Of a stretch of 34,744 nt of DNA, positions 2,574-30,649 are shown in pieces. Every line of letters begins with the position of its first letter. The stretch's first letter is position 1. Below the pieces are notes generated by a model. That model was given only the letters and a program-made list of their open reading frames with translations. It had not been told where the DNA came from and did no database searches. This DNA comes from Acidobacteriota bacterium (GTDB taxonomy: Bacteria; Acidobacteriota; Terriglobia; UBA7540): positions 1 to 34,744 of the forward strand of contig CADDZC010000041.1 in NCBI GenBank assembly GCA_902812365.1, given 5' to 3'. A program made the position numbers and the translations under genes.

Positions 2574-2869
2574 AGCCCCTTTTCCTCCGCACGCAGCTTG
2601 GCGCACGCGATCGGCCACACGGCTAAATTCTCTTATGTTCTTATAAATTATTGTTTCTAAACTCTTTATGTTCAGACGGAGAGTCACAGCGGCTTTTCCG
2701 AGCGGAGGATATGTGCCGAAATGTCGGCACGTGCCTATATTTCGGCACATGCCGGCCGCTGGACCGAGAGGTCATTTGGTGGCGCAAGCCAACGCGTAGG
2801 CCAAAAACGGTGCTAAGCGTGGCGCGGTCCTGAAGGGTGGTCCGCCTGGCCGCTGGGTCGGATGGGGGG
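2574..2869. other. Intergenic region with AT-rich stretch and tandem palindromes
   Basis: This 296-nt gap lies between the DegT aminotransferase and the STAS gene, both on the minus strand. It holds a conspicuously AT-rich segment at about 2630-2670, with minus-strand TATAAG and TAATTT words that could serve as a -10 box for the STAS gene, and two adjacent 18-bp palindromes at 2713-2748. No convincing -35 box or terminator was found. The aminotransferase stop codon lies inside a GGGGTTAACCCC palindrome at about 2865-2876. Confidence 0.55.
2713..2748. promoter_or_regulatory. Two head-to-tail 18-bp palindromes, probable operator
   Basis: Positions 2713-2730 read GTGCCGAAATGTCGGCAC, a perfect 7-bp inverted repeat (GTGCCGA/TCGGCAC) with a 4-nt spacer. 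Directly abutting it, 2731-2748 reads GTGCCTATATTTCGGCAC, the same pattern with one arm mismatch. Two equal sites with no gap suggest cooperative binding of two dimers of a transcription factor. They lie about 140 nt upstream of the preferred STAS start, next to an AT-rich stretch. The cognate regulator is unknown and not encoded nearby. Confidence 0.6.
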
Positions 2870-4204
2870 TTAACCCCTGTTAAGTCCAAGGGCGGAAAGG
2901 ACTTTTCGGAAGGCACGCACGATGTCGTCTTCGTCTTTTTCGGTGAGGCAGGACGGGATGGCCAGCAGGATACTTCGCTCGAAGAGGCTGTCGGCTGCGG
3001 GGCAGACTCCTTTGTGATAGTCGCGGACCAGGCGGGCGTTCTCGGCCAGCGTCCAGGGAAAACCGCGGCCGTCGCAGCCGGTTTTCTGCACCAAGCTGAC
3101 GATGTTGTAATAGATGTGCAGGCCCCACTCCGTCATCACAATGTTGGAAACCCCCTGGGGCGAGGTCACAATACCCTCCGCCCGCAGGGCCTGATTCACG
3201 CGCCGGGCGATCGCAGGGTTGGGGTAAGTGGTGATCAGGAAGCAGCCGGTGTCTCCTTGCGGATCAACGATCCGGCGCAGGCCCACCCCCGGAAATTCTT
3301 CCAGGGCCTGGCGGATGCGGTACTTACTGCGGCGCATCCGTGCGATCACCCCCGGAAGCTTCTTCAACTGAACGCGCAGGATGCTGGCGCGGAGCTCGTC
3401 CAGGCGATAACCCTTTCCCCACAGGCACAGTTCGGCGTCGCCGACCTGAAGGCGGCCCCGCTCATCGCGGGCGTATCCGAGGTCGTGGCAGGCAAAGGCC
3501 CGCTCGTAAAGGTGGGAGTTGTTGGTGACCACGCATCCGCCCTCTCCGCAGGTCATGTTTTTGTTCATCTGAAAGCTGAACGCGGCCATGTCGCCAAAGG
3601 TTCCCACCCGCTGACCGCCGACGCTGCCGCCGTTGCACTGGGCGCAATCCTCCAGCAAAAAGATCCCGCGGCGGCGGCAGATGCTTTGCAGAGCCCGAAT
3701 GTCGGCCGGAGCCCCGCTCATGTGCACCGCGATGACGCCGGCGGTCCTGGCCGTGATTTGGCGCTCCACTTCGACCGGATTCAGGCCAAAGGTGTCGTCG
3801 ATATCCGCCAGCACCGGAATGGCCCCTTGGTTGACCACCGCCGCCACCACCGACACCCACAGATAGGCCGGTACGATGACTTCTTGCCCCGGACCCACCC
3901 CCAGCGCCCCGAGCGCTGTCGACAGCGCCCCGGTCCCGCTGCTCACCGCCAGAGCCCGCGACGCGCCCAAAAATTGCGCAAATTCCGATTCGAACGCCTC
4001 GACCTCCTCCGGGGCGCGGACGCCGTAATACCGGAACAAGGAGCGGGATCGGAGCGGGCGCAGGGCGGCTTCGATCTCCTCGCCGTCCATGTGGTGGATG
4101 CCGGGGAACTCGAGGGGCAAAGGCTCGACTCGGACCGGCCGGCCGCCGTCAATCGCCAGGGCCTCGTGCCGGGCCTCGATCGTGCGCGTGGTCTGTTCGC
4201 TCAT
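2870..4204 (-). CDS. DegT/DnrJ/EryC1/StrS-family PLP-dependent aminotransferase
   Basis: The 444-residue product is a fold-type I PLP enzyme of the DegT/DnrJ/EryC1/StrS family, whose members transaminate keto-sugars or form AHBA-like compounds. The cofactor pocket is intact: SSGTGALSTAL (phosphate-binding loop), EDCAQCNGG (the Asp contacting the pyridine nitrogen) and FSFQMNKNMTCGEGG with the Schiff-base lysine at about K215. The N-terminal part LFRYYGVRAPEEVEAFESEF matches the usual family opening. I chose the ATG at 4204 because GGAAGGA precedes it; an in-frame ATG at 4243 would add 13 residues without a better site. It lies 86 nt downstream of the TonB receptor gene on the same strand, so it may be read from that promoter. 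No other nucleotide-sugar gene is present, so the substrate cannot be assigned. Confidence 0.9.
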   Translation of the reverse strand: MSEQTTRTIEARHEALAIDGGRPVRVEPLPLEFPGIHHMDGEEIEAALRPLRSRSLFRYYGVRAPEEVEAFESEFAQFLGASRALAVSSGTGALSTALGALGVGPGQEVIVPAYLWVSVVAAVVNQGAIPVLADIDDTFGLNPVEVERQITARTAGVIAVHMSGAPADIRALQSICRRRGIFLLEDCAQCNGGSVGGQRVGTFGDMAAFSFQMNKNMTCGEGGCVVTNNSHLYERAFACHDLGYARDERGRLQVGDAELCLWGKGYRLDELRASILRVQLKKLPGVIARMRRSKYRIRQALEEFPGVGLRRIVDPQGDTGCFLITTYPNPAIARRVNQALRAEGIVTSPQGVSNIVMTEWGLHIYYNIVSLVQKTGCDGRGFPWTLAENARLVRDYHKGVCPAADSLFERSILLAIPSCLTEKDEDDIVRAFRKVLSALGLNRG

Positions 4205-4290
4205 ATCGGATCCTTCCCGCGGCCGGCCGCCCGGGCCGTCCACCGCGCTCGCTGGGTGCCGGCGCCCGTCCGCTCATCGGGAGCATGGCT

Positions 4291-7200
4291 TCAGAACAAA
4301 AATTTGATCGCCACCTGCCCGATGCGTTCCCCGCCGGCGCCGGTCACGAATCCGAACGTCGAGTCGATGATGTTGCCGTCCGGGTTCGAAAATTGCGCGT
4401 GGTTGAAGGCACTGAAAAACTCGCCCCGGAACTCCAGCGATTTCGATTCGCTCAGCTTCAATTCCTTCAGAATGCCCACGTCCCAGTTGTTAATCCCCGG
4501 GCCGTGAAAGAAGCGCCGGTTGGAGTTCCCCAGTTGCCCGAACATCCGGTTGGGGCAGCCGGGTCCGCTCGAGCCGGTGGGGCCGGAGCCCGGCGGGCAG
4601 CCTTCCAGGTAGAACAACTGCGCGGCATTGCTCAGGTAAGGGGAGGGCGCGGACGAGGTCAAATTCTGCCGGCGGGGGTCGATCTTCTGGATGTGGCCTC
4701 CCATGAAGTTGGGCGTATCGACTCCGGAACCGGTCGGCCCCGTACTCCCCGTGCCGAGCAGCGAAGCGTCATCCTGCTCGGTGACAAACACCGGAAGCCC
4801 GGTGGCGAAGCGGGTAATGCCGGTGAGGATCCATCCGCGGGTGGCGCGATGGGCGGGCAGAAACTTGTCGAAGGGCAACTCGTAGGAGTAGCTGGCGACG
4901 AAGTTATGGGTCACGTCGAAGGCAGAGAGAGCTTTGCCCAGCTTTGGGTTGACGGGATTGATGATCTCCACGCCTCCGGAGCCCGAACCCGGCCCCCAGC
5001 TCGACGCATTATCCATCGCTTTCGAGTAGGTATAGCCGACCAAAAGCTGCAGCCGGCCGCTGGTGTGCCGTAGGCTAGCCTCGAGCGCGTTGTAGTTGGA
5101 GTTTGCCATCGTCGAAAACAACCCGTCGCTGCCGAAGGCCGGACCGAAGGGTCCCCGGGTGCTGTTGATGACGCCTCCCGTCACCGGGTAGTAGACCCCG
5201 TTCTCGCCAAACGGGCCGCACGTGGCGGTGCCCGGCATCACCTCGCTCGGCAGGCTAACGCTCGCGCACAGCGCCGGATTGCCAGGGTTGGCCTCCTGGT
5301 CAGCCAGCAGGTGGTGCCCCTGGGTCCCGACGTAGCTCAAGCTCAACAGCGTGTTGCCGCCGATCTGCCGTTCGAAAGAGACCGTGTAATGCTCGGCGCG
5401 AGGCACCACGTTGGTGTGATCAAATCCCGGCGAACTGGAGATGGGCTCAAACAGCCTCTTCCAGTCCGCTGCCGTCAGCGAGGTATCAGGATTGGAAGCG
5501 GAAACGTTCAGGGGTGGAATGGGCGAGGGGAAGCGCTGGCCGTTGTTGGTTCCGTCGGGGAGATTGATGAAGGGATTGGCGAACAATGTCTTCTCGGGAT
5601 TCACGTAGTAGTACCCAAAAGGCGCGTCGCCCACGGTGTTGAAACTGGTGGCATTCTCAAAAGCGGTGTAGAAAATCCCGTAGGCCGCCCGGATACTCGA
5701 CCTGCCCGGTCCGCCGAGAAGCCGCCGCGCTATCCCCCCTTCGGCGCTGGGCGACCAAGCGAGCCCGATTCTCGGACCGAAATTGTGGTAGCGCACCGGG
5801 GAGACCGTATGCGGCACCGTGGGGTCGGTGGGAACCAGCCAGCCTCGAGGCGCGCCCGGGAAAGCCACGGATTGAACGCCGTACACCAGCGTCTCGAGTT
5901 CATTATGGATCTCGGTCCAGGGCGTGCTCACCTCCCAGCGCAAGCCGTAATTGAGCGTCAGGTTCGGCTGGGCGCGCCAACTGTCCTGGGCATACAAGGC
6001 ATAGTAGTGAGTGCGCGTGTACTGCGGGAGCTGCTCGCCCTGGTTGTAGGTGGACACCGCGCCCAACAGGAAATCCGCGAAATCGGAACCCGTTTCCGCG
6101 CCACTAAACGACCAGGTGCCGTTCAGGGCGCCGAAGTCGAACAGGTTGATCTGCCCGGTGTGGAACTCACCGCCGAACCTGGCGGTGTGGGTGCCGAAGA
6201 CCTTCGACAAATTGTCCAGGATCTGGTACGTGTTGTTCACCTGCTTTTCGTAAAACGGCTCCACACCCAGGGAGAATTCATTCGTGGAAACGCTGGGAAC
6301 GCCTTCCGACTTGGGATTCCCTACGTAGACGCCGGTGATCCCAAATGAGCTGTAGCTGGGGCCGACGCCGCCGATGGGCTGCCCGTTCCAGAAAGTGTAA
6401 CGCGTGAAATTCAGCCGAAGTTCGTTGACCTTGTCCCCGCCGAATGACTTCGTATCGCCGAGGTTGAACTGTTGCGCCCGGCCCGGCGCCGCGCCGGAAA
6501 AGCCCGGCAGGTTGGTGGCGATGAAGGGATTCACGGTGCGGAAGTCGTCGAAGAAATAGTAGCCGGAAAGCATGCCCAGCCGGGTGTTGCCATCGATTCG
6601 AGCGCTCCACTTGTCGTCGCGCAGGCTCCCTTTGAAGGCCGAGGTGGCAAAGTACGCGCCGGCGTTCGGCAACGGAATATACCCTCCCTGCAGCAGCGCC
6701 TTCGCCGGGGCCGAGATCGCCGGCGGCGGGATGACGGCGTTCGGAAACACGCATTGGGAGGGGCTCGTGCAGCCGCTCGTGTAATAAGGCTCGCCGGAAG
6801 TGACCGGGTACCCGAGCTCACTCGAGAGCACGCTGGCCCAATAGGGACCGGAAACGCTCCCCGTCATCGCGCTGCTGAGGTCGGCGAGGTTGCCCGAGCG
6901 ATCCGCGGCCGACGGCACCAGCACGAGCTGCGGCTGCCCGCGCACCTCCCGCGTGGCCTGGTAGTCACCGAAGAAAAACATCCGGTCGCGGAGGATGGGG
7001 CCGCCGAAGGTTCCGCCAAACTGGTTGCGGTGAAGCTCGGCGCGCGCCGAACCCGGGATTTCCGCCCCTGTCACCGGGTTGGTTTGGTTGTAAGAATAGA
7101 AGTTGCGGGCGTCCATTTTGTTGTTGCGGAGGAACTCGAACAGATCGCCATGGAACTCGTTGGTACCCGATTTGGTGACCACATTCACCAGGCCCCCGCT

Positions 7201-21868: not shown

Positions 21869-24103
21869 GTGGGAGCTGCCCCCAGTATCGGAAAGAGTCG
21901 CCGCCACTGGGTGAGCCTCGTCCCTTACGGGCTGAACCAGCAGCATCCCAACAACTACCGAGACATCCTCAGCGCGCTCTGGGAAAACCGCGACAACCTC
22001 GGGTACGCGTGGCGAATCCTCAAAGACGGCTGTTGTGATGGCTGCGCGCTCGGCACCTCGGGCATGCGCGACTGGACGATGAAAGGCATCCATTTGTGCG
22101 CGGTGCGGCTGCAATTGTTGCGGTTGAACACTATGCCGGCCATGGACTGGCGCCGGCTTGAGGACGTCGAGCGCCTGCGCGGCGTGAACGAACGGGGTCT
22201 CAGGCGGCTGGGGCGGCTGGCCGTGCCGATGATCCGCCGGCGGGGCGAGCGAGGCTTCCGGCGCGTCGGATGGAATGAGGCAATCGGCTTGGTTGCGGAG
22301 CGGCTGCGGGCGACGGATCCGCGGCGCCTGGCCTGGTATCTTACCTCGCGGGGCCTGACCAATGAAGACTATTACGCTCATCAAAAGGTCGCGCGCTTTA
22401 TTGGCACCAATCACGTCGATACCAGCGCCCGCCTCTGCCATGCGCCCTCGACGTCAGCCTTGAACGCCGCGGTGGGCTGCGCCGCCGCGACGTGCTCTTA
22501 TTCGGACTGGATCGGCACCGATCTGCTGGTCTTTGTGGGCTCGAACGTTGCCAACAACCAACCCGTGGCCACTAAGTATCTCTATTACGCCAAGAAGGCG
22601 GGCACCCGGGTTGTTGTGGTGAACCCCTACATCGAACCCGGCATGGAGCGTTACTGGATTCCGTCCGTGGCGGAAAGCGCGCTGTTCGGTACCCGCATCG
22701 CCGACGATTTCTTTCAAATCAACGTGGGCGGCGACATCCCGTTCTTTTATGGAGTTCTGAAGCATCTGATCGAAAACCATTGGGTTGACAAGGACTTTAT
22801 CGCGCGCCGGACCTCCGGCTGGGAGGCCGTCGAAGCGCGGGCGCGCAGCCTGCCTTGGGAGTCTCTGGAGCGGGGATCCGGGCTTCGGCGGGCCGAGATG
22901 TTCCGCTTTGCGGAGCGGTTTGGCCAGGCGCGGACGGCGATCCTGGTGTGGAGCATGGGCGTTACCCACCATCGGTTCGGGAGCGATAACGTCCGCGCTA
23001 TCATTAACTTACAACTTGCGCGAGGAAACGTCGGACGCCCGCACACGGGGCTGATGCCGATCCGTGGCCACAGTGGCGTTCAGGGCGGAGCGGAAATGGG
23101 AGCCACTCCGGGCGCTTATCTGATGGGATTTCCCGTCGATCCTGAGCATGCCCGCTTGTTCTCGACGCCTGAATATTGGGGATTTGCGCCGCCAGCCTGG
23201 AAAGGGATGGGGGCGGCGGAGATGGTTCTGGCGATTGAAAGGGGTGAGATCGAGGCGTTGTGGCAAAGTGGGGGTAACTTGATGGACACCTTGCCGGAGC
23301 CCGAGCGCGTTCGTAACGCTTTGATTCAGCTTAAGTTACGTGTTCATCAGGATATCGTGGTCAGTCCCGCCATGCTGGTCGACCCCGGGGACACCGCGGT
23401 CATTCTGCCGTCGCGGACTCGCTACGAAGAGCGCGGAGGATTCACGGAGACGAGTACGGAACGCCGCGTCATCTACAGCCCCGAGATACCCGGCCCGCGA
23501 GTGGGCGAAGCTCGCGATGAATGGGAGATTCCGGTGCTCGTGGCCCGGCGACTTGGGGGCGAGCGCGCGGCGCGTATCTTCCCCTGGCGGGACACTCGCG
23601 ACATCCGCCAGGAAATCGACCGTATCTGCCCTGTGTACAAAGGGATAGCGTCATTGGCCCGCAAGGGACACAACTTCCAATATGGGGGTCCGCGCTTGCT
23701 GGCCGACCGTTTCCTGACTCCCGACGGCAAGGGCCGCTTTACGGCGATTGAACTGCCGGAGGCCCAGATTCCGCCGGATCGCTTCCTGCTTTCCACTCGC
23801 CGCGGCAAGCAGTTTAATAGCCTGATCCACGCGGACGCAGACCCCCTGACCGGGGCGGGGCGGCGGGACGTTCTAATGGCGAGTGAAGACGCAGCGCGCC
23901 TGGGGTTGAAAACCGGTGATCCCGTTCTGCTGCGGAATGACTATGGAGAGTTCCGAGGCACGGTCAGAATCGACCGCATGAAGCCAGGCTTTGTTCAAGG
24001 ACATTGGCCGGAGGTCAACGGTCTGATCCCTTCAGGCCGCCTTGATTCGAGCGGGGTTCCGGACTATAACGCGGTGGTCGAAATTCTGCCTGGCGGTAAC
24101 TAA
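21869..24103 (+). CDS. Molybdopterin oxidoreductase, FdhF/YdeP-like alpha subunit
   Basis: The 744-residue product belongs to the Mo/W-bisPGD oxidoreductases, closest in layout to the YdeP/formate-dehydrogenase-alpha-like group. Near the N-terminus the Fe-S cysteines are C56-x2-C59-x17-C77 (DGCCDGCALG... HLC). The three-cysteine spacing recalls YdeP more than FdhF. The likely metal ligand is Cys190 in ARLCHAPSTSALNAAVG. Further cofactor stretches are VFVGSNVANNQPVATKYLYY, MPIRGHSGVQGGAEMG and the C-terminal dinucleotide-binding domain from about 640 (RRGKQFNSLIHADADPLTG). There is no Tat signal, so it is probably cytoplasmic. No beta or gamma subunit and no maturation gene lies beside it, so the electron partner is unknown. 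The GTG start at 21869 has GGAG about 8 nt upstream. The name formate dehydrogenase should be held loosely; YdeP-like proteins have poorly known substrates. Confidence 0.88.
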   Translation: MGAAPSIGKSRRHWVSLVPYGLNQQHPNNYRDILSALWENRDNLGYAWRILKDGCCDGCALGTSGMRDWTMKGIHLCAVRLQLLRLNTMPAMDWRRLEDVERLRGVNERGLRRLGRLAVPMIRRRGERGFRRVGWNEAIGLVAERLRATDPRRLAWYLTSRGLTNEDYYAHQKVARFIGTNHVDTSARLCHAPSTSALNAAVGCAAATCSYSDWIGTDLLVFVGSNVANNQPVATKYLYYAKKAGTRVVVVNPYIEPGMERYWIPSVAESALFGTRIADDFFQINVGGDIPFFYGVLKHLIENHWVDKDFIARRTSGWEAVEARARSLPWESLERGSGLRRAEMFRFAERFGQARTAILVWSMGVTHHRFGSDNVRAIINLQLARGNVGRPHTGLMPIRGHSGVQGGAEMGATPGAYLMGFPVDPEHARLFSTPEYWGFAPPAWKGMGAAEMVLAIERGEIEALWQSGGNLMDTLPEPERVRNALIQLKLRVHQDIVVSPAMLVDPGDTAVILPSRTRYEERGGFTETSTERRVIYSPEIPGPRVGEARDEWEIPVLVARRLGGERAARIFPWRDTRDIRQEIDRICPVYKGIASLARKGHNFQYGGPRLLADRFLTPDGKGRFTAIELPEAQIPPDRFLLSTRRGKQFNSLIHADADPLTGAGRRDVLMASEDAARLGLKTGDPVLLRNDYGEFRGTVRIDRMKPGFVQGHWPEVNGLIPSGRLDSSGVPDYNAVVEILPGGN

Positions 24104-24156
24104 TCCTAGGTAGATCATAGAATTACCGGCGAAATTCAGGGGCTGGGAAAAAATTT

Positions 24157-24186
24157 CTTGACATAGACATACTCAAACTTTATTAT
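24157..24186 (+). promoter_or_regulatory. dnaK promoter with overlapping HAIR-like HspR operator
   Basis: A perfect TTGACA (24158-24163) is followed after 17 nt by TATTAT (24181-24186), a strong housekeeping promoter. Overlapping it, 24157-24177 reads CTTGACA-N7-ACTCAAA. This aligns with the HAIR consensus CTTGAGT-N7-ACTCAAG at 11 of 14 arm positions with exact spacing. HspR binding here would cover the -35 box and most of the spacer and block transcription. The regulator gene is the last gene of this locus. Confidence 0.75.
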
Positions 24187-24267
24187 ATGTAACGACTCAG
24201 ATGATTCAGGCATCTAAGTTTTACGAGCATGGTGTGGCAACATCCATAAGTAAAGGAGAAGCCAGCG

Positions 24268-26199
24268 ATGGGCAAGATTATCGGGATTGACCTGGGCACG
24301 ACCAATTCCGTCGTGGCGGTGATGGAAGGTGGAGAACCCACTGTAATCCCCAATCCGGAAGGGTCGCGAACAACGCCGTCGGTGGTGGCGTTCACGAAGT
24401 CCGGGGAGCGTTTAGTGGGCCAAGCGGCGAAGCGGCAGGCGATTACTAACCCTGAGAATACGATTTACTCGATCAAGCGCTTTATGGGGCGCCGTTTCAG
24501 CGAGGTCCAAAACGAGATCAAGGCGGTGCCGTACAAGGTGGTAGCAGCTCCCAACGGCGACTGCCGGATTGTGGCCCAAGGCAAAGAGTATTCCCCGCAG
24601 GAGATCTCCGCCATGATCCTGCAGAAGATGAAGGACGCGGCGGAGCAATATTTGGGGGAGAAGGTGACGCAGGCCGTTATTACCGTACCGGCGTACTTCA
24701 ATGACGCTCAGCGCCAAGCGACCAAGGACGCGGGCAAGATCGCGGGGCTCGAGGTGCTGCGCATTGTCAACGAGCCGACGGCGGCGGCGCTGGCGTACGG
24801 GTTGGACAAGAAAAAGGATGAAACCATCGCCGTTTACGACTTCGGAGGAGGCACGTTTGACATCTCCATCCTGGAAGTGGGCGAGGGCGTGGTGGAAGTC
24901 AAATCCACCAACGGCGACACCCATCTGGGGGGCGACGACATCGACAAGCGCATCATGGACTGGATTGTGGAAGAGTTCCGCAAGGACCAGGGTATCGATC
25001 TTTCCAAAGACCGCATGGCCCTGCAGCGCCTCAAAGAAGCGGCGGAAAAGGCCAAGATGGAGCTCTCCACGGTGCTGGAGACTGAAATCAACTTGCCCTT
25101 CATCACGGCCGATGCTTCCGGCCCCAAGCACCTGGCCATGAAGCTGACCCGGGCCCGCTTCGAGCAGATGTGCGAAGACATCTTCCAGCGCTCGGTCGGT
25201 CCGGTCAAGCAGGCGCTTCAGGATGCGGGGCTGGGACCGGAAAAGATCGATGAGGTGGTGCTGGTCGGTGGATCGACGCGAATTCCCCGCATTCAGCAGA
25301 TTGTAAAGGACTTGTTCCATGGGAAGGAGCCTCATAAGGGAGTGAATCCGGATGAGGTGGTCGCCGTCGGAGCCGCCGTGCAAGCGGGGGTGCTGGGCGG
25401 AGAAGTGAAGGACTTGCTGCTGCTCGACGTGACCCCGCTGACGCTCGGCGTTGAAACGCTCGGCGGAGTGATGACGACGCTGATTCCGCGCAACACCACC
25501 ATCCCGACGCGCAAGAGCGAGATCTTCTCGACCGCGGCCGATAACCAAACCTCGGTCGAGATTCACGTCCTGCAAGGCGAGCGGCCTCTGGCCAAGGACA
25601 ACCGGACGCTCGGGAAATTCCACTTGGTTGGAATCCCGATGGCGCCGCGAGGCGTGCCCCAGATCGAGGTAACGTTCGACATCGACGCCAACGGCATCTT
25701 GAATGTTTCGGCCAAAGACCTGGGTACCGGGAAGGAGCAAAAGATCACCATCACCGCGTCGAGCGGCCTGACCAAGGAAGAGATCGAGCGCATGACGAGG
25801 GAAAGCGAGCTCCACGCGGAAGAGGATCGACGGCTGAAGGAGGAGATCGAGCTCAAGAACCGCGCCGACGCGATGGTGTATTCCACCGAGAAGATGCTGA
25901 AGGAGAACCGCGAGAAAATCTCCGACAGCGACGCCAAGAACATCGAAGCGGCCATTGAAGAGGCCAAGAAGGCCATTCAAGCGAGCGACAGTTCCAAGAT
26001 TACGGCGGCGGTGGAACGTCTGACACAAGCCTCGCACAAGCTGGCGGAGGCCATGTATAAGCATGCCGCGCCGAGCGGGGGCGGGGCGGCGGCAGGCGGG
26101 GCCGGAGCCGGAGCCAGCGCGCCCTCGGGCGGGGCGGCGAAGGCGGAGGGCGAAGTGATTGACGCCGAAGTCGTCGAGGATGAAAAGAAAAAGAGTTGA
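24268..26199 (+). CDS. dnaK: Hsp70 chaperone DnaK
   Basis: The 643-residue product is the ATP-driven chaperone that binds exposed hydrophobic segments of unfolded proteins with DnaJ and GrpE. The actin-like ATPase opens [20 protein letters not shown], and the second phosphate loop is [17 protein letters not shown]. The phrase [19 protein letters not shown] completes the nucleotide site. The interdomain linker is [20 protein letters not shown]. The C-terminal lid ends in a Gly/Ala-rich tail and [16 protein letters not shown], close to the EEV-type end. The ATG follows AAAGGAG. It heads the heat-shock locus, about 75 nt downstream of the predicted transcription start. No grpE lies in the window, so that partner must be encoded elsewhere. 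Confidence 0.98.
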
Positions 26200-26253
26200 T
26201 GGTGGGAGGGGCGGAGCGCGCCTCTCACCGGCGAAAAGTCGCAGGAGAAAGGC

Positions 26254-26481
26254 ATGGAACCCAACGCCCAATTCTCAGCCGAACAGATCAAACATCGGGC
26301 CCACGTAGGGGTGGAATGCCCGCAATGCCACTTCCGGCAGTTCATGGAAGTGGATTTCGAACGACCCGAAGAGCTGAAGAGCTCTCCCTTGGCGGCAGAG
26401 ATTCGGGCGCACCTGGAAGCGTGGATGGCATCGCGCTGCCCCGATCACCTGGGAATCATCTCGCAGTTGAGCAAGAATTAG
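26254..26481 (+). CDS. 75-residue Cys-containing protein between dnaK and dnaJ
   Basis: The product carries VGVECPQCHFRQFMEVDFER, a CxxC knuckle followed by a His, then a charged helical half with one further Cys (MASRCPDHLGIISQLSKN). A C-x2-C-xn-C/H zinc or redox site is possible but incomplete by standard patterns. GGAGAAAGG lies just upstream of the ATG, 54 nt after the dnaK stop, so it is read with dnaK. Its place is where grpE often sits, but it has no resemblance to GrpE, which is much larger and coiled coil. I do not recognise the family. Its position suggests a role tied to the chaperone system or to redox or zinc stress, by inference only. Confidence 0.75.
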   Translation: MEPNAQFSAEQIKHRAHVGVECPQCHFRQFMEVDFERPEELKSSPLAAEIRAHLEAWMASRCPDHLGIISQLSKN

Positions 26482-26775
26482 GCGTCAAAAAAAGAAACCA
26501 AGGGGCTGGAGGACGAAAGGCAAGCCGGGAGGAGAGCGAGGGCTCGGAGAAGGCGCGGATGAGACGCGCTTGCTGAAGGTCACCCCGGTTGCATCACGCC
26601 GGGGTGAGCGGCTGCTGAAAGGCCGGGCCTGAGGGGGCGACGCTGGATGGGTATGCGGTGAGCCGCGGCACCCTGGCCTTCCCGGTGGCGCGACTGTGAG
26701 AGGGGGCGGGTGAATCGCTCGGGGGCATCTGCTCGGCGCACTCAAGTCCCCGCTCACGATTGATCTCAGGAAATT
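26482..26775. other. Long spacer within the heat-shock locus
   Basis: This 294-nt gap before dnaJ has no credible coding frame. It contains a perfect 8-bp inverted repeat CACCCCGG/CCGGGGTG at 26581-26606 with a 10-nt loop and no T-run, and a lone HAIR half-site ACTCAAG at 26740-26746 whose partner arm is poor. I found no -35/-10 pair, so whether dnaJ has its own promoter is open. Confidence 0.5.
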
Positions 26776-27969
26776 ATGCCTGTCGGCACCCAAAAAGATT
26801 ATTACGCGATCCTCGGCGTGGACCGCAACGCCAAGCCGGAGGAGATCAAGAAGGCGTATAAGCACCTGGCCCGCAAATATCATCCCGACTTAAACCCGGG
26901 CAACAAAGCGGCTGAAGAACGGTTTAAAGAAATTTCGGAAGCCTACGACGTGCTCGGCGACGAGAAGAAGCGGCAGGTCTACGATCAGTACGGCTTTTAC
27001 TCGGACAATATCCCCCCGGGTGGCTACGGAGCGGGTGCGAGCGCCGCGGGCGCTACCGCTCCCGGTGGATTTGATTTCTCCGGCTTCGATTTTTCCGACT
27101 TCGGCTTTCCGGAAGGCGAGCAGCGGGCGGGCGGCTTCGGTTCTTCGTTCCGGGATCTGTTTTCCCACATCTTCTCGCGCGGCGGACACGACGAATCCCC
27201 GGAAGGGCCGGTGCGGGGAACGGATCTCGAACATCACATGCGCCTGAGTTTTTGGGATGCCATTCGAGGCACGCAAGTCCGGATCAGTGTGGCGCGGAAC
27301 GAGCCGTGCGGAACCTGCAAGGGAACCGGGGACGGAAAGGGTCCGGCGACGGTGTGCGCCACCTGCGGGGGCAGCGGCAAGGTGTCGCGACAGGTGGGCG
27401 TGATGCAGTTTTCGGGCCCCTGCGCGGATTGCCGGGGCACGGGGCGGCGGAAGTCTCGCTGCCCCACATGCAACGGCAGTGGGGTGGTGCGGCGGCCGGA
27501 GACGTTTGAGGTGCGGATTCCGGCGGGAGTGGACACCGGTTCGCGCGTGCGGGTGCCGGGCAAAGGCAATGCGGGCGTGAACGGCGGTCCGCGCGGCGAC
27601 CTCATCATCATCACCGAGGTTGAGCCGCATCCGGTGTTTGAGCGCAAGGGCGACAATATTTATGTCAAAGTGCCGGTGACGGTGAGCGAGGCGGCGCTGG
27701 GGGCGAAGGTGGAGGTTCCCACCATCGACGGGCCCAGCACGATCAAGATTCCTCCCGGAACGCAGAGCGGGCAGAAATTGCGGCTGCGCGGCAAGGGAGC
27801 GCCGTCGCTGCGCGGCGACGTGCGCGGCGACGAATTTGTTGAGGTTCAGGTTGTGGTTCCGGCGGCCCGCGATGAGCGGACGCGGGAACTTTTGCGCGAG
27901 CTGGCCAAGTTGAACGGCGAAAACCCGCGCGCCGAGTTGCTGCGGCAAGCGGCGGCGGTGAGGCGCTAG
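26776..27969 (+). CDS. dnaJ: Co-chaperone DnaJ (type I Hsp40)
   Basis: The 397-residue product stimulates DnaK ATPase activity and delivers substrates. The J-domain has [20 protein letters not shown] and the invariant HPD at residues 36-38. A Gly/Phe-rich linker covers about 75-135 ([19 protein letters not shown]). The zinc-binding region has four CxxCxGxG repeats: [24 protein letters not shown] and CPTCNGSG, about residues 178-240. The two C-terminal peptide-binding domains follow ([20 protein letters not shown]). This is a complete type I protein, a little longer than usual because of the linker. AGGA precedes the ATG. It is separated from the 75-residue gene by a long spacer and followed by hspR. 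Confidence 0.96.
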
Positions 27970-28135
27970 CAAAGGCCAGGGGAAAGCCGCCGGTCGGGCG
28001 GGGCCGGTAAGGTACCCGGCGCGCCCGAAAGGGCGTGGCAGCTCGATCGCCACCAACGAAACTCGCCCAGGTTGACGAAAACCGGCGGGTCAGAGGTGGG
28101 GAGAACGTATCGCCTCCCACTGAACCGTGAAAATT

Positions 28136-28546
28136 ATGCCACGGAAACGTGCCAAATCGGGCGGGAAGGCCGGCTACATGATTAGCGCGGTGGCCGAGAT
28201 GTATAACCTCCACCCGCAGACGCTGCGCCTCTACGAGCGCGAAGGCCTGCTGATTCCTTCCCGCAGCCAGGGTAACACCCGCCTTTATACCCAAGAAGAC
28301 CTCCGGCGGCTCGAAATCATTCTGAAGTTGACGCGCGAGTTGGGCGTCAATCTGGCGGGAACCGAGATCATCCTCAACATGCGCGATCGCATGGAAGAGA
28401 TGCAGAAAGAGATGAGAGCGTTTATCGAGTACGTGCGCCAGCGGCTCGAGATGGCCCCTCCGAGCGAGTCCGACGAGACGGCCGAGAACGCCCTGGTTCA
28501 CGTGCCGCCGCGATTTCTGACCCGGCCGCGCGCGCGCCAGGGCTAA
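28136..28546 (+). CDS. hspR: MerR-family heat-shock repressor HspR
   Basis: The 136-residue product is a MerR-type helix-turn-helix repressor of the HspR group, known in Streptomyces, Mycobacterium and Helicobacter to repress dnaK operons through HAIR sites, often with DnaK as co-repressor. The signature opening YMISAVAEMYNLHPQTLRLY is followed by EREGLLIPSRSQGNTRLYTQ and EDLRRLEIILKLTRELGVNL. A helical dimerisation arm (NMRDRMEEMQKEMRAFIEYV) and a polar tail complete it. It is the last gene of the dnaK locus, and the dnaK promoter carries a HAIR-like site, so autoregulation is likely. The start is uncertain: neither the GTG at 28127 nor the ATG at 28136 has a good ribosome site. A GTGGGG/TCCCAC stem at 28096-28120 lies just upstream. 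Confidence 0.92.
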   Translation: MPRKRAKSGGKAGYMISAVAEMYNLHPQTLRLYEREGLLIPSRSQGNTRLYTQEDLRRLEIILKLTRELGVNLAGTEIILNMRDRMEEMQKEMRAFIEYVRQRLEMAPPSESDETAENALVHVPPRFLTRPRARQG

Positions 28547-29086
28547 GACGCCGGCGAGAAGTTTCAGGCCGCGTTTCCCTGGCCCCTGCTGAGCCGCACA
28601 TCGTTTCCGTCAATTTCCCTCGGCACTCCCAGCCGTCCACCCCGCCGCTCGCTGACGCCGCCGGACGAAAACAGGTCCCGTTTTTCCAAGCCCCAACCGT
28701 GCGGATGGATTAGAATAGGCGGCAGCGTTGTTTCCGGGACGCCCACAGGCTGGCCGCTGGCGTGCCGGATGGCCGGAGGCTGAGAAGAGAGGTGCGCATG
28801 CGGGCGCCGTCAGGGGGTGCTTGCCGAGGGGGCGTGTGGCCGACGCCGCCCAGCGGCGAAACTTCGCGAATCTTCGTTGCTAAAGAAACTTTTTGCTGAA
28901 ACTTTTGCGAATCGTGCGCCGTATTATAGGATAAGTGGTGGCTGACACCGGCCTGGATCACCCGGGCAGGGGCCGCTGGCCAGGATGGCGGTGAGAACAG
29001 CCGGAATCCGAGACCGGACTCGAAACGGATGGGCTGAGCTTACGTCTTACGGATGGAGTGCCTGAGCTTCGGAGGAGTGGACAATC
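28547..29086. other. Intergenic region upstream of the macAB-like operon
   Basis: This 540-nt gap follows hspR. No coding frame or RNA gene is recognisable in the first 300 nt. The second half has an AT-richer stretch at 28855-28935 with repeated GAAACTT motifs and a TATTAT box, described separately, which is the likely control region of the exporter operon. The remaining about 150 nt to the macA-like ATG would be an untranslated leader without a clear structure. Confidence 0.5.
28858..28927 (+). promoter_or_regulatory. Repeated GAAACTT boxes and -10 element before the exporter operon
   Basis: GAAACTT occurs at 28858-28864, 28885-28891 and 28898-28904. The first and third copies continue as GAAACTT-C-GCGAATC and GAAACTT-TT-GCGAATC, so the longer unit repeats 40-41 nt apart. 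TATTAT at 28922-28927 is a good -10 box, but the hexamer 17 nt upstream (AAACTT) is a poor -35 and is itself part of the third repeat. This layout suits an activator-dependent promoter. Confidence 0.5.
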
Positions 29087-30649
29087 ATGGCTCTCAGCAC
29101 CAAGACTTTGCTAGAGGACACGCCCACGCACGCCGTGGCGGAAGAATCCACGCGCCGCGAGGTAGCGCTTCCGCCCCGGCGGGCGAAGGGGAAGTCGAAG
29201 ACAAAGGCGATCTCGATCGTGGCGGGGGCGGTGGCGCTCGCCATTCTGGTGGTCGTTGGAATCGAGTGGAGCAAGCGGGGGCAGGTGACGGTGCAGACCG
29301 GCCAGGTGGCAAGGCAGGATTTAGCCGCCATCGTCACGGCTTCCGGGCAGATCGAGCCGCCGCCCGAGAAGCTGGCCAACGTCAACGCCAACTCCTTCGG
29401 CAAGATCACCGGGCTTTACGTCAAAGAAGGTGACACGGTGAAGAAAGGGCAGCTTCTGCTGCGGACGGAAGACGTGCAGCAGTCGGCCAGCGTGGAGGCC
29501 CAGCAGGCGGCCATTCGGACCGCCCAGGCGGACGTTGAGGCCCAGAACGCCAATGTGGAGTCGGCCGCCGCCAATCTGAAGACGGCGGAGGCCAACTTGG
29601 CGCAGGCGCAGGCGAAACTCAAGGACGCCAGCGACCAGTTTCAGCGCGATCAGCTAGGCCTGAAAGAGCAGATTATTTCGCAGCAGCAATTCGATACGAG
29701 CTTGAGCAATTATGAAGTGGCCAAGGCCGCCATGCAGTCGGCCGAAGCGCAGCTCGCGCAGAGCAAGGCGCAGTATCAGCAGGCGATTTACAACCGCGAC
29801 ATGTCGCGGGCCCGGCTGAGGCAGGCGCAGGCGCAATTGCTGGGCTTGCAGAACCAGTTGCAGCAGACGATCTACACCTCGCCGATCAACGGAATCATCA
29901 CCTCCCTGCCCGTGCATCTGGGTGAAAACGTTGTGCCCGGCATCCAAAACCAGGTGGGCAGCGTCCTCTTCCAGGTCTCCGACCTGTCGACGATCACGGC
30001 CGAGGTGATGGTTGACGAAACGGACATCGTCAACATCCGGCTGGGGCAGCCGGCGGAAGTGCAGATTGATGCCATTCCCAATAAGAGTTTTAGCGGCAAG
30101 GTGACGGAAATCGGGCAGAGCGCCGTCAGCAGCACCACCGGGCAGACGACGACTGCGTCCACGGCCAGCAGCGCCACGGCCAATCAGGAGGCGAAGGAAT
30201 TCAAGGTGGTGGTGACGCTGGACAGTCCGCCGCCGGGCCTGCGGCCGGGCCTTTCGGCGACGGCGAGGGTCACGACGGCGACCCGCAAGGATGCGGTGAC
30301 GGTGCCCATTCAAGCGTTGACCATCCGCACGCGCGGGGAGCTCGAATCGAACCCGGCGAAGCGGCCGCCGGGCCGGGCGGTGGCCGCCGCTCCCATCACC
30401 GAAAAAGAGAAGGAGCGGTTGAAGGAAGAGTTGCAGGGCGTGTTCGTGGTGCGGAACCAGCGGGCCGTGTTCGTGCCCGTCAAAACCGGCATTATGGGCG
30501 AGACCAACGTCGAGATTTTGGATGGCGTGAAGCCCGGGGATACAATCGTCACCGGCCCCTTCCAGGTGCTTCGCACCTTAAAGAACAACTCGAAGGTGAA
30601 GGTGGATAACAGCGGCGGCGGTCAGCCGAAGCCGGCATCATCTTCGTAG
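29087..30649 (+). CDS. MacA-like periplasmic adaptor (HlyD/RND membrane fusion family)
   Basis: The 520-residue product is the adaptor of a MacAB-type exporter. After a 41-residue cytoplasmic stretch comes one membrane anchor at about 42-60 (AISIVAGAVALAILVVVGI). The two lipoyl halves are ANVNANSFGKITGLYVKEGD (about 97-116) and YTSPINGIITSLPVHLGENV (about 263-282). A long coiled coil separates them (about 130-260, AANLKTAEANLAQAQAKLKD), suited to meeting a TolC channel. Beta-barrel and membrane-proximal domains follow (LVLTLDSPPPGLRPGLSATA-like region, then VFVPVKTGIMGETNVEILDG). A 35-residue Ser/Thr/Ala-rich insertion lies in the beta-barrel (SSTTGQTTTASTASSATANQ). GGAGGAG precedes the ATG. 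It is the first gene of a four-gene operon. No tolC is included; one lies far to the left at 720-2183. Confidence 0.92.
   Translation: MALSTKTLLEDTPTHAVAEESTRREVALPPRRAKGKSKTKAISIVAGAVALAILVVVGIEWSKRGQVTVQTGQVARQDLAAIVTASGQIEPPPEKLANVNANSFGKITGLYVKEGDTVKKGQLLLRTEDVQQSASVEAQQAAIRTAQADVEAQNANVESAAANLKTAEANLAQAQAKLKDASDQFQRDQLGLKEQIISQQQFDTSLSNYEVAKAAMQSAEAQLAQSKAQYQQAIYNRDMSRARLRQAQAQLLGLQNQLQQTIYTSPINGIITSLPVHLGENVVPGIQNQVGSVLFQVSDLSTITAEVMVDETDIVNIRLGQPAEVQIDAIPNKSFSGKVTEIGQSAVSSTTGQTTTASTASSATANQEAKEFKVVVTLDSPPPGLRPGLSATARVTTATRKDAVTVPIQALTIRTRGELESNPAKRPPGRAVAAAPITEKEKERLKEELQGVFVVRNQRAVFVPVKTGIMGETNVEILDGVKPGDTIVTGPFQVLRTLKNNSKVKVDNSGGGQPKPASSS

Follow-up and report, generated by a model that had tools for sequence, protein, structure and literature searches.

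The bacterial Hsp70 system is usually given as DnaK, DnaJ and GrpE. In actinobacteria the genes form an operon of the order dnaK-grpE-dnaJ-hspR, and DnaK serves there as co-repressor of HspR. The operator bound by this repressor, the HspR box (HAIR), has the consensus CTTGAGT-N7-ACTCAAG. Small zinc proteins are also known as partners of Hsp70. Hep1, with the four-cysteine spacing CxxC-x21-CxxC of the zf-DNL proteins, is described as an escort in mitochondria and plastids, and R106 and H107 of Tim15 are reported to be critical for the contact with mtHsp70 (PMC4890766). Ruc (Rv0991c) of M. tuberculosis, also a small zinc protein and with a gene linked to those of chaperones, aids DnaK after oxidation. 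It consists of CxxC-N17-CxxC and a hydrophilic disordered tail, on which the M. tuberculosis protein depends; tails of homologues can be as short as about 7 residues, and the gene is often found near those of DnaK and DnaJ (PMC7448276).

Gene order of the dnaK cluster and the place of grpE

In the window, i.e. the whole stretch of 34,744 nucleotides that was analysed, four genes follow one another on the forward strand: dnaK (24268..26199, 643 aa), a small gene for a 75-residue protein with the motifs C-P-x-C and C-P-x-H (26254..26481), dnaJ (26776..27969, 397 aa) and a gene for an HspR-like MerR-type repressor (about 28139..28546, with the start codon at 28127 or 28139). This order, given in the first-pass annotation, was confirmed by the open reading frame calls and by NCBIfam matches (NF001413 and TIGR02350 for dnaK, TIGR02349 for dnaJ). 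The repressor reached 101 bits with the HspR model NF047375, slightly below the cut-off of 105. The small gene is separated from dnaK by 54 nt and from dnaJ by 294 nt. It consists of 75 codons starting with ATG, directly preceded by AGGAGAA, in agreement with the good ribosome site described before. An Rfam scan of positions 23500-29100 (E 0.1) gave no match.

The absence of grpE from the dnaK cluster, likewise part of the initial description, was verified by review of the reading frames and by tblastn with the GrpE of the same genome. To place the small gene in the grpE position is misleading, because contig C44 of this genome carries an intact grpE as part of an hrcA-grpE-dnaJ operon. This grpE was the only match of the GrpE search, and a further dnaJ copy is present there. 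With the same query grpE was detected in none of the 28 loci of the family described below and in none of 21 further dnaK loci; all ten grpE loci used as control were recovered. In the 16 dnaK loci of other families grpE was not found, and a Pfam scan of the 75-residue protein up to E 10 did not return GrpE (PF01025). Since grpE is intact elsewhere in the genome, a replacement of GrpE by the small protein was ruled out. Apart from this, in genome G044, which belongs to another family, a second DnaK-like gene adjoins grpE (contig C1, 60957-63287, partly contained in L090); its product is 55% identical to the DnaK of the window.

Homologues, selection and position of the small gene

Homologues were sought at E 0.1 by a protein search of 61 genomes, the own genome and 60 relatives. 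Matches were obtained for 31 genomes; 28 were strong and belonged without exception to the same acidobacterial family, and the weak ones came from G035 (same family), G041 and G049. L005 and L006 duplicate the loci L003 and L004; after their removal 28 homologues were aligned. They share 34-63% identity and their loci span 17 genera. Non-ATG starts were written as M in the alignment, and the row of L008 carries a false first residue (M for R) ahead of its GTG start; positions 14-75 are unaffected by both. Two copies found later are kept outside the 28: that of L063 (G184) is located between dnaK and dnaJ, that of L067 (G027) is truncated by the contig end.

A profile of the 28 rows matched 30 of the 39 same-family genomes in a sample of 399 genomes of the class, with two weak matches in other families (G143 and G150). 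Among 396 genomes of the phylum, 11 gave weak matches at E 0.01, a count that contains the own genome; no further convincing homologue was found in this sample with the limited number of candidates scored per genome, a search that remote relatives could escape. Of possible viral relatives, 37 stretches fitted a pattern and none was confirmed. Among the papers listed in searches of an open PMC library, no description of the gene was found.

For 14 within-genus pairs, which have members in common and hence are not independent, pN ranged from 0.09 to 0.21 and pS from 0.53 to 0.91, with pN below pS in every pair. Thus, the gene is under purifying selection and its protein sequence is kept. With 28 homologues in one family, all following dnaK, and pN well below pS in 14 of 14 pairs, the small reading frame is a real gene and not a product of chance. 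Due to the selection on the protein sequence, an absence of translation appears unlikely.

The first-pass annotation had proposed to look for homologues beside dnaK in relatives. In all 28 family loci dnaK directly precedes the small gene, so that the refuting outcome, no such homologue, is excluded. Downstream, dnaJ was seen in 26 loci in the first search and in 27 after re-inspection, with just 21 residues visible at the contig end in L028. The contig of L026 ends 918 nt past the small gene with no dnaJ in it; gaps elsewhere reach 1120 nt. With the starts as chosen, 9-282 nt separate dnaK from the small gene, and the distance from there to dnaJ extends from an overlap to the 1120 nt mentioned. 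Some loci have operon-like spacing, such as L027 with the small gene 9 nt past dnaK and overlapping dnaJ. In L024 a dnaJ start follows the small gene twice, at 1834-1917 (28 residues) and in a longer form at 2636-3187, as if part-duplicated or mis-assembled.

Ten same-family genomes in which the gene was absent or partial were examined for the dnaK flank. Six had no dnaK match at E 1e-100, a threshold which short dnaK fragments could escape. In G027 the small gene is the truncated copy already mentioned, and in G032 and G036 dnaK itself is truncated at the contig end. G188 contains one truncated dnaK (93% identical) and a second dnaK (73% identical) followed by dnaJ, with the small gene missing; the contig of the latter is probably foreign. 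Except for this contig, a dnaK 3' flank lacking the small gene was never seen in the genomes of the family that were examined. No sure loss was thus observed within the family, with G188 as the one ambiguous case.

For comparison, 16 dnaK loci from other families of the same class (L073-L088) were inspected, the sister family included, and the small gene was absent from all of them. Here, dnaJ starts at most 165 nt past the dnaK stop in ten loci, follows intervening genes in four and was unseen within 1.5 kb in two; hspR was seen after dnaJ in nine. In the single sister-family genome (G037) the distance between the dnaK stop and dnaJ is 58 nt. Most simply, an ancestor of this single family would have gained the gene within its dnaK-dnaJ-hspR cluster, with no displacement of grpE. 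As it is confined to this family, DnaK in general does not need the protein.

The intervening genes of the other families are of different kinds. L074 (about 3459-3755, reverse strand, counted from the start of the locus) and L084 (3515-3892) encode an unrelated small protein (RxVGPPQAVQKLRE[DN]FYLVQV..., 126 aa in L084, 64% identity across 99 residues) for which no Pfam model scored over the cut-off. Both genomes belong to one other family, a third genome of which (L079) is without it; the protein apparently is a second lineage-specific insertion between dnaK and dnaJ. By the look of the translations, L075 carries an Hsp20-like gene at this site (3542-3994, one genome) and L083 a toxin-antitoxin-like pair, antitoxin-like and PIN-like (about 3580-4330, reverse strand, likewise counted from the locus start, one genome). 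DnaK itself has four positions diagnostic of the family. C302 is found in 28 of 29 family members and also in the sister family, which is without the small gene; hence it does not mark the arrival of the gene. C313 never occurs in the family and is carried by 14 of 17 other DnaKs.

Protein signature and control of the operon

Seven positions are invariant in the 28 sequences: C22, P23, C25, W57, P63, H65 and the C-terminal N75. The N-terminus is variable. In the alignment the first putative ligand pair is C22-P-Q-C25 (codons 22-25, 26317..26328, forward strand) and the second C62-P-D-H65 (codons 62-65, 26437..26448, forward strand), resulting in the spacing C-x2-C-x36-C-x2-H in the window protein. 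C62 is cysteine in 27 members; the phenylalanine in L026 (G017) may be genuine or stem from an erroneous base. The CPQCH knuckle noted initially stands only as far as CPxC, present in 28 of 28, since H26 is histidine in just 21; the kept unit comprises C22-P-x-C25 and C62-P-x-H65. This pattern suggests a Cys3His zinc site. From the earlier proposal of a zinc or redox sensor, zinc binding would fit the C2CH ligand set and nothing points to sensing. The redox part is weakened by the second pair, which is Cys/His rather than Cys/Cys.

The protein was called unrecognised before, and no Pfam or NCBIfam model named the gene in the scans run. The best values for the 28 members were E 0.007 (Pfam) and E 0.005 (NCBIfam), to dissimilar families. 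An AlphaFold model from three sequences (pLDDT 68.7 overall, moderate confidence in the core) predicts two strands, one short helix and one long helix that ends right ahead of C62, followed at the C-terminus by another short helix. Fold searches with this weak model matched no solved fold convincingly; zf-DNL was not among the fold matches listed, which has no bearing on a zf-DNL fold.

Weak matches were inspected in 13 loci (1.9-3.3 kb each). No dnaK, dnaJ or hspR was found in them, and those whose frame was read retain at most half of the signature; L111 and L114 showed no matching frame. Nearest is the match of G150, with CPAC, 34 residues and then CTFH, the Trp and the second Pro being missing. 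That of G041 (L104) is without any C-x2-C. In G567 (L109) the stretch WIASHYPEHL is similar to the C-terminal half, and the Cys of that half is missing.

Ahead of dnaK (24157..24186, forward strand), a sigma-70-like promoter with the sequence TTGACA-17-TATTAT overlaps the HspR-box-like (HAIR-like) element CTTGACA-N7-ACTCAAA. This promoter was the sole one of its type found in positions 24000-28800, and its -35 region overlaps the near-match to the HspR box consensus. Of 21 regions of the class, 18 have TTGACA-N7-ACTCA with at least 10 of 11 matches not more than 250 nt ahead of dnaK, a count that is partly circular, as the pattern was derived from the same regions, and whose shuffle control preserves single-base composition only. 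Excluded from the 21 were L071, a probable foreign contig, and L087 and L088, which have no upstream DNA. Genome-wide, 110 matches to the box pattern compared with 83 for the reversed control are uninformative. The conservation of the element before dnaK suggests control of the operon by HspR. Between dnaK and the small gene the best box match is 6 of 14; with the lone promoter and the box-like element before dnaK, co-expression of the small gene with dnaK is likely. The gap before dnaJ contains a weaker HspR-box-like stretch (raw score 10 of 14), and dnaJ may possibly be under separate control of its own.

Possible functions and comparison with known systems

The protein encoded in the dnaK operon is real, unnamed and family-specific. 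Our best inference is that it is an accessory of the chaperone system, as proposed in the first-pass annotation. The strict linkage to dnaK and dnaJ, the selection, the probably shared promoter and control, and the invariant W57 and N75 beyond the putative ligands all suggest that it is a partner protein of Hsp70. In particular, we tentatively favour a heat-induced, zinc-stabilised and presumably cytosolic DnaK/DnaJ accessory acting in the manner of a Hep1-like escort and not as GrpE replacement, an account that is plausible and still short of probable. C22, C25, C62 and H65 would bind one structural zinc, which in the weak model would join a beta-hairpin with the C-P-x-C knuckle to the later helix. 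DnaK, DnaJ and this protein would be produced from one operon, which HspR, judging by the promoter element, probably represses. Most likely the small protein would dock on the DnaK/DnaJ machine and support it, e.g. by maintaining DnaK in solution or adjusting how clients are handled, much like the mitochondrial Hsp70 escort Hep1/Zim17/Tim15.

Other functions were considered. A holdase activated by oxidation or zinc release, like Ruc or Hsp33, would have its cysteines oxidised under stress, lose its zinc and hold unfolded clients for DnaK. We regard this as unlikely, even though the protein is of a small zinc type and encoded in a chaperone operon, as is often true of Ruc (PMC7448276), and the Hsp33 profile (PF01430) matched none of the 61 genomes, with 8 of 14 control genomes matched. 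Hsp33 is also missing in families without the small gene. The Cys/His second pair does not permit two disulfides as in Cys4 switches, which makes a Ruc-type switch less likely here, and C62 is replaced in one member. The segment past the putative zinc site is short compared with the tail-dependent Ruc of M. tuberculosis, a weak point in view of the tails of about 7 residues reported for Ruc homologues (PMC7448276). Proteins of the Zn_ribbon_8 type are, moreover, already present in 60 of the 61 genomes. We take Ruc to be equivalent to this Pfam family (Zn_ribbon_8/FmdB, PF09723). The own genome has three matches to it, those listed including contigs C42 and C24; the window protein gave none at E 10, and for the 28 members the family was not among the best 25 of 27 families listed.

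A passenger, i.e. a zinc protein of unrelated function that came under heat control when its gene was inserted behind dnaK in the family ancestor, is in our view rather improbable. The gene occurs in one family only, and the site accepts insertions, as is evident from the four of 16 other-family loci with intervening genes (the unrelated small protein in two, the Hsp20-like gene and the toxin-antitoxin-like pair in one each). Against this, the linkage is kept across 17 genera, and genome searches with a limited number of candidates scored per genome revealed no convincing further copy outside the dnaK locus. It is doubtful as well that the protein alters DnaK as HspR co-repressor and thereby lets the operon sense zinc or stress. 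Its gene is located between dnaK and the hspR-like gene under a probable HspR box, but the cluster of other families does without it, including the nine of 16 loci with hspR after dnaJ. Finally, a c-type haem protein was suggested by the CPQCH motif and by a weak Cytochrom_CIII match in Pfam (E 0.041, under the cut-off). The conserved CxxCH is not given, with R, Q, S or N in place of H26 in seven of 28 members, and a signal peptide was not apparent by eye; due to the variable H26 this candidate was ruled out, and its probability is close to nil.

As in the actinobacterial operon, the locus ends with a gene for an HspR-type repressor, and dnaK is preceded by an HspR-box-like element. In contrast, none of the sampled dnaK loci contains grpE, and one family has the 75-residue protein. 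A family-specific extra protein whose gene keeps its place between dnaK and dnaJ would demonstrate that Hsp70 can acquire dedicated partners in individual lineages, and its clear signature is available to annotators.

With Hep1/Zim17/Tim15 the protein has in common the small size, the zinc-type character, the tie to Hsp70 and one knuckle that is similarly flanked. In the PDB, the family profile matched Tim15 (2e2z) best at E 0.25, a chance-level value for a single knuckle, and RNF25 scored nearly the same. We record it because R28, present in 22 of 28 members, and residue 29, Q or H in 27 of them, align with R106 and H107 in the numbering of PMC4890766, in an alignment of only E 0.25; gapless extension places V33 opposite D111, a further Tim15 residue for the contact with Hsp70. 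The similar knuckle is, however, the first here and the second in Tim15, and C-x2-C-x36-C-x2-H differs from the CxxC-x21-CxxC given for Hep1 (PMC4890766). The zf-DNL model (PF05180) yielded no match over the cut-off in 61 genomes and nine weaker places, none of them the small gene; in the scans of the 28 members it matched one (E 0.21). As the ligand order differs and the model failed to detect it, the protein is not filed with Hep1/zf-DNL on present sequence grounds. A true bacterial counterpart of Hep1/Zim17, convergent or a knuckle-swapped relative, that docks on DnaK by means of the R-[QH] pair behind the knuckle, is improbable to us. If the protein nevertheless acts like Hep1, it would offer a bacterial model for the escort function described for mitochondria and plastids (PMC4890766). 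With Ruc, which is often encoded near the DnaK and DnaJ genes and cooperates with DnaK (PMC7448276), it would share the nature of a small zinc protein, and differs from its CxxC-N17-CxxC by the Cys/His second pair and the 36-residue spacer. The best reading seems to be a protein that may work like Hep1/Zim17 or Ruc and is a member of neither family.
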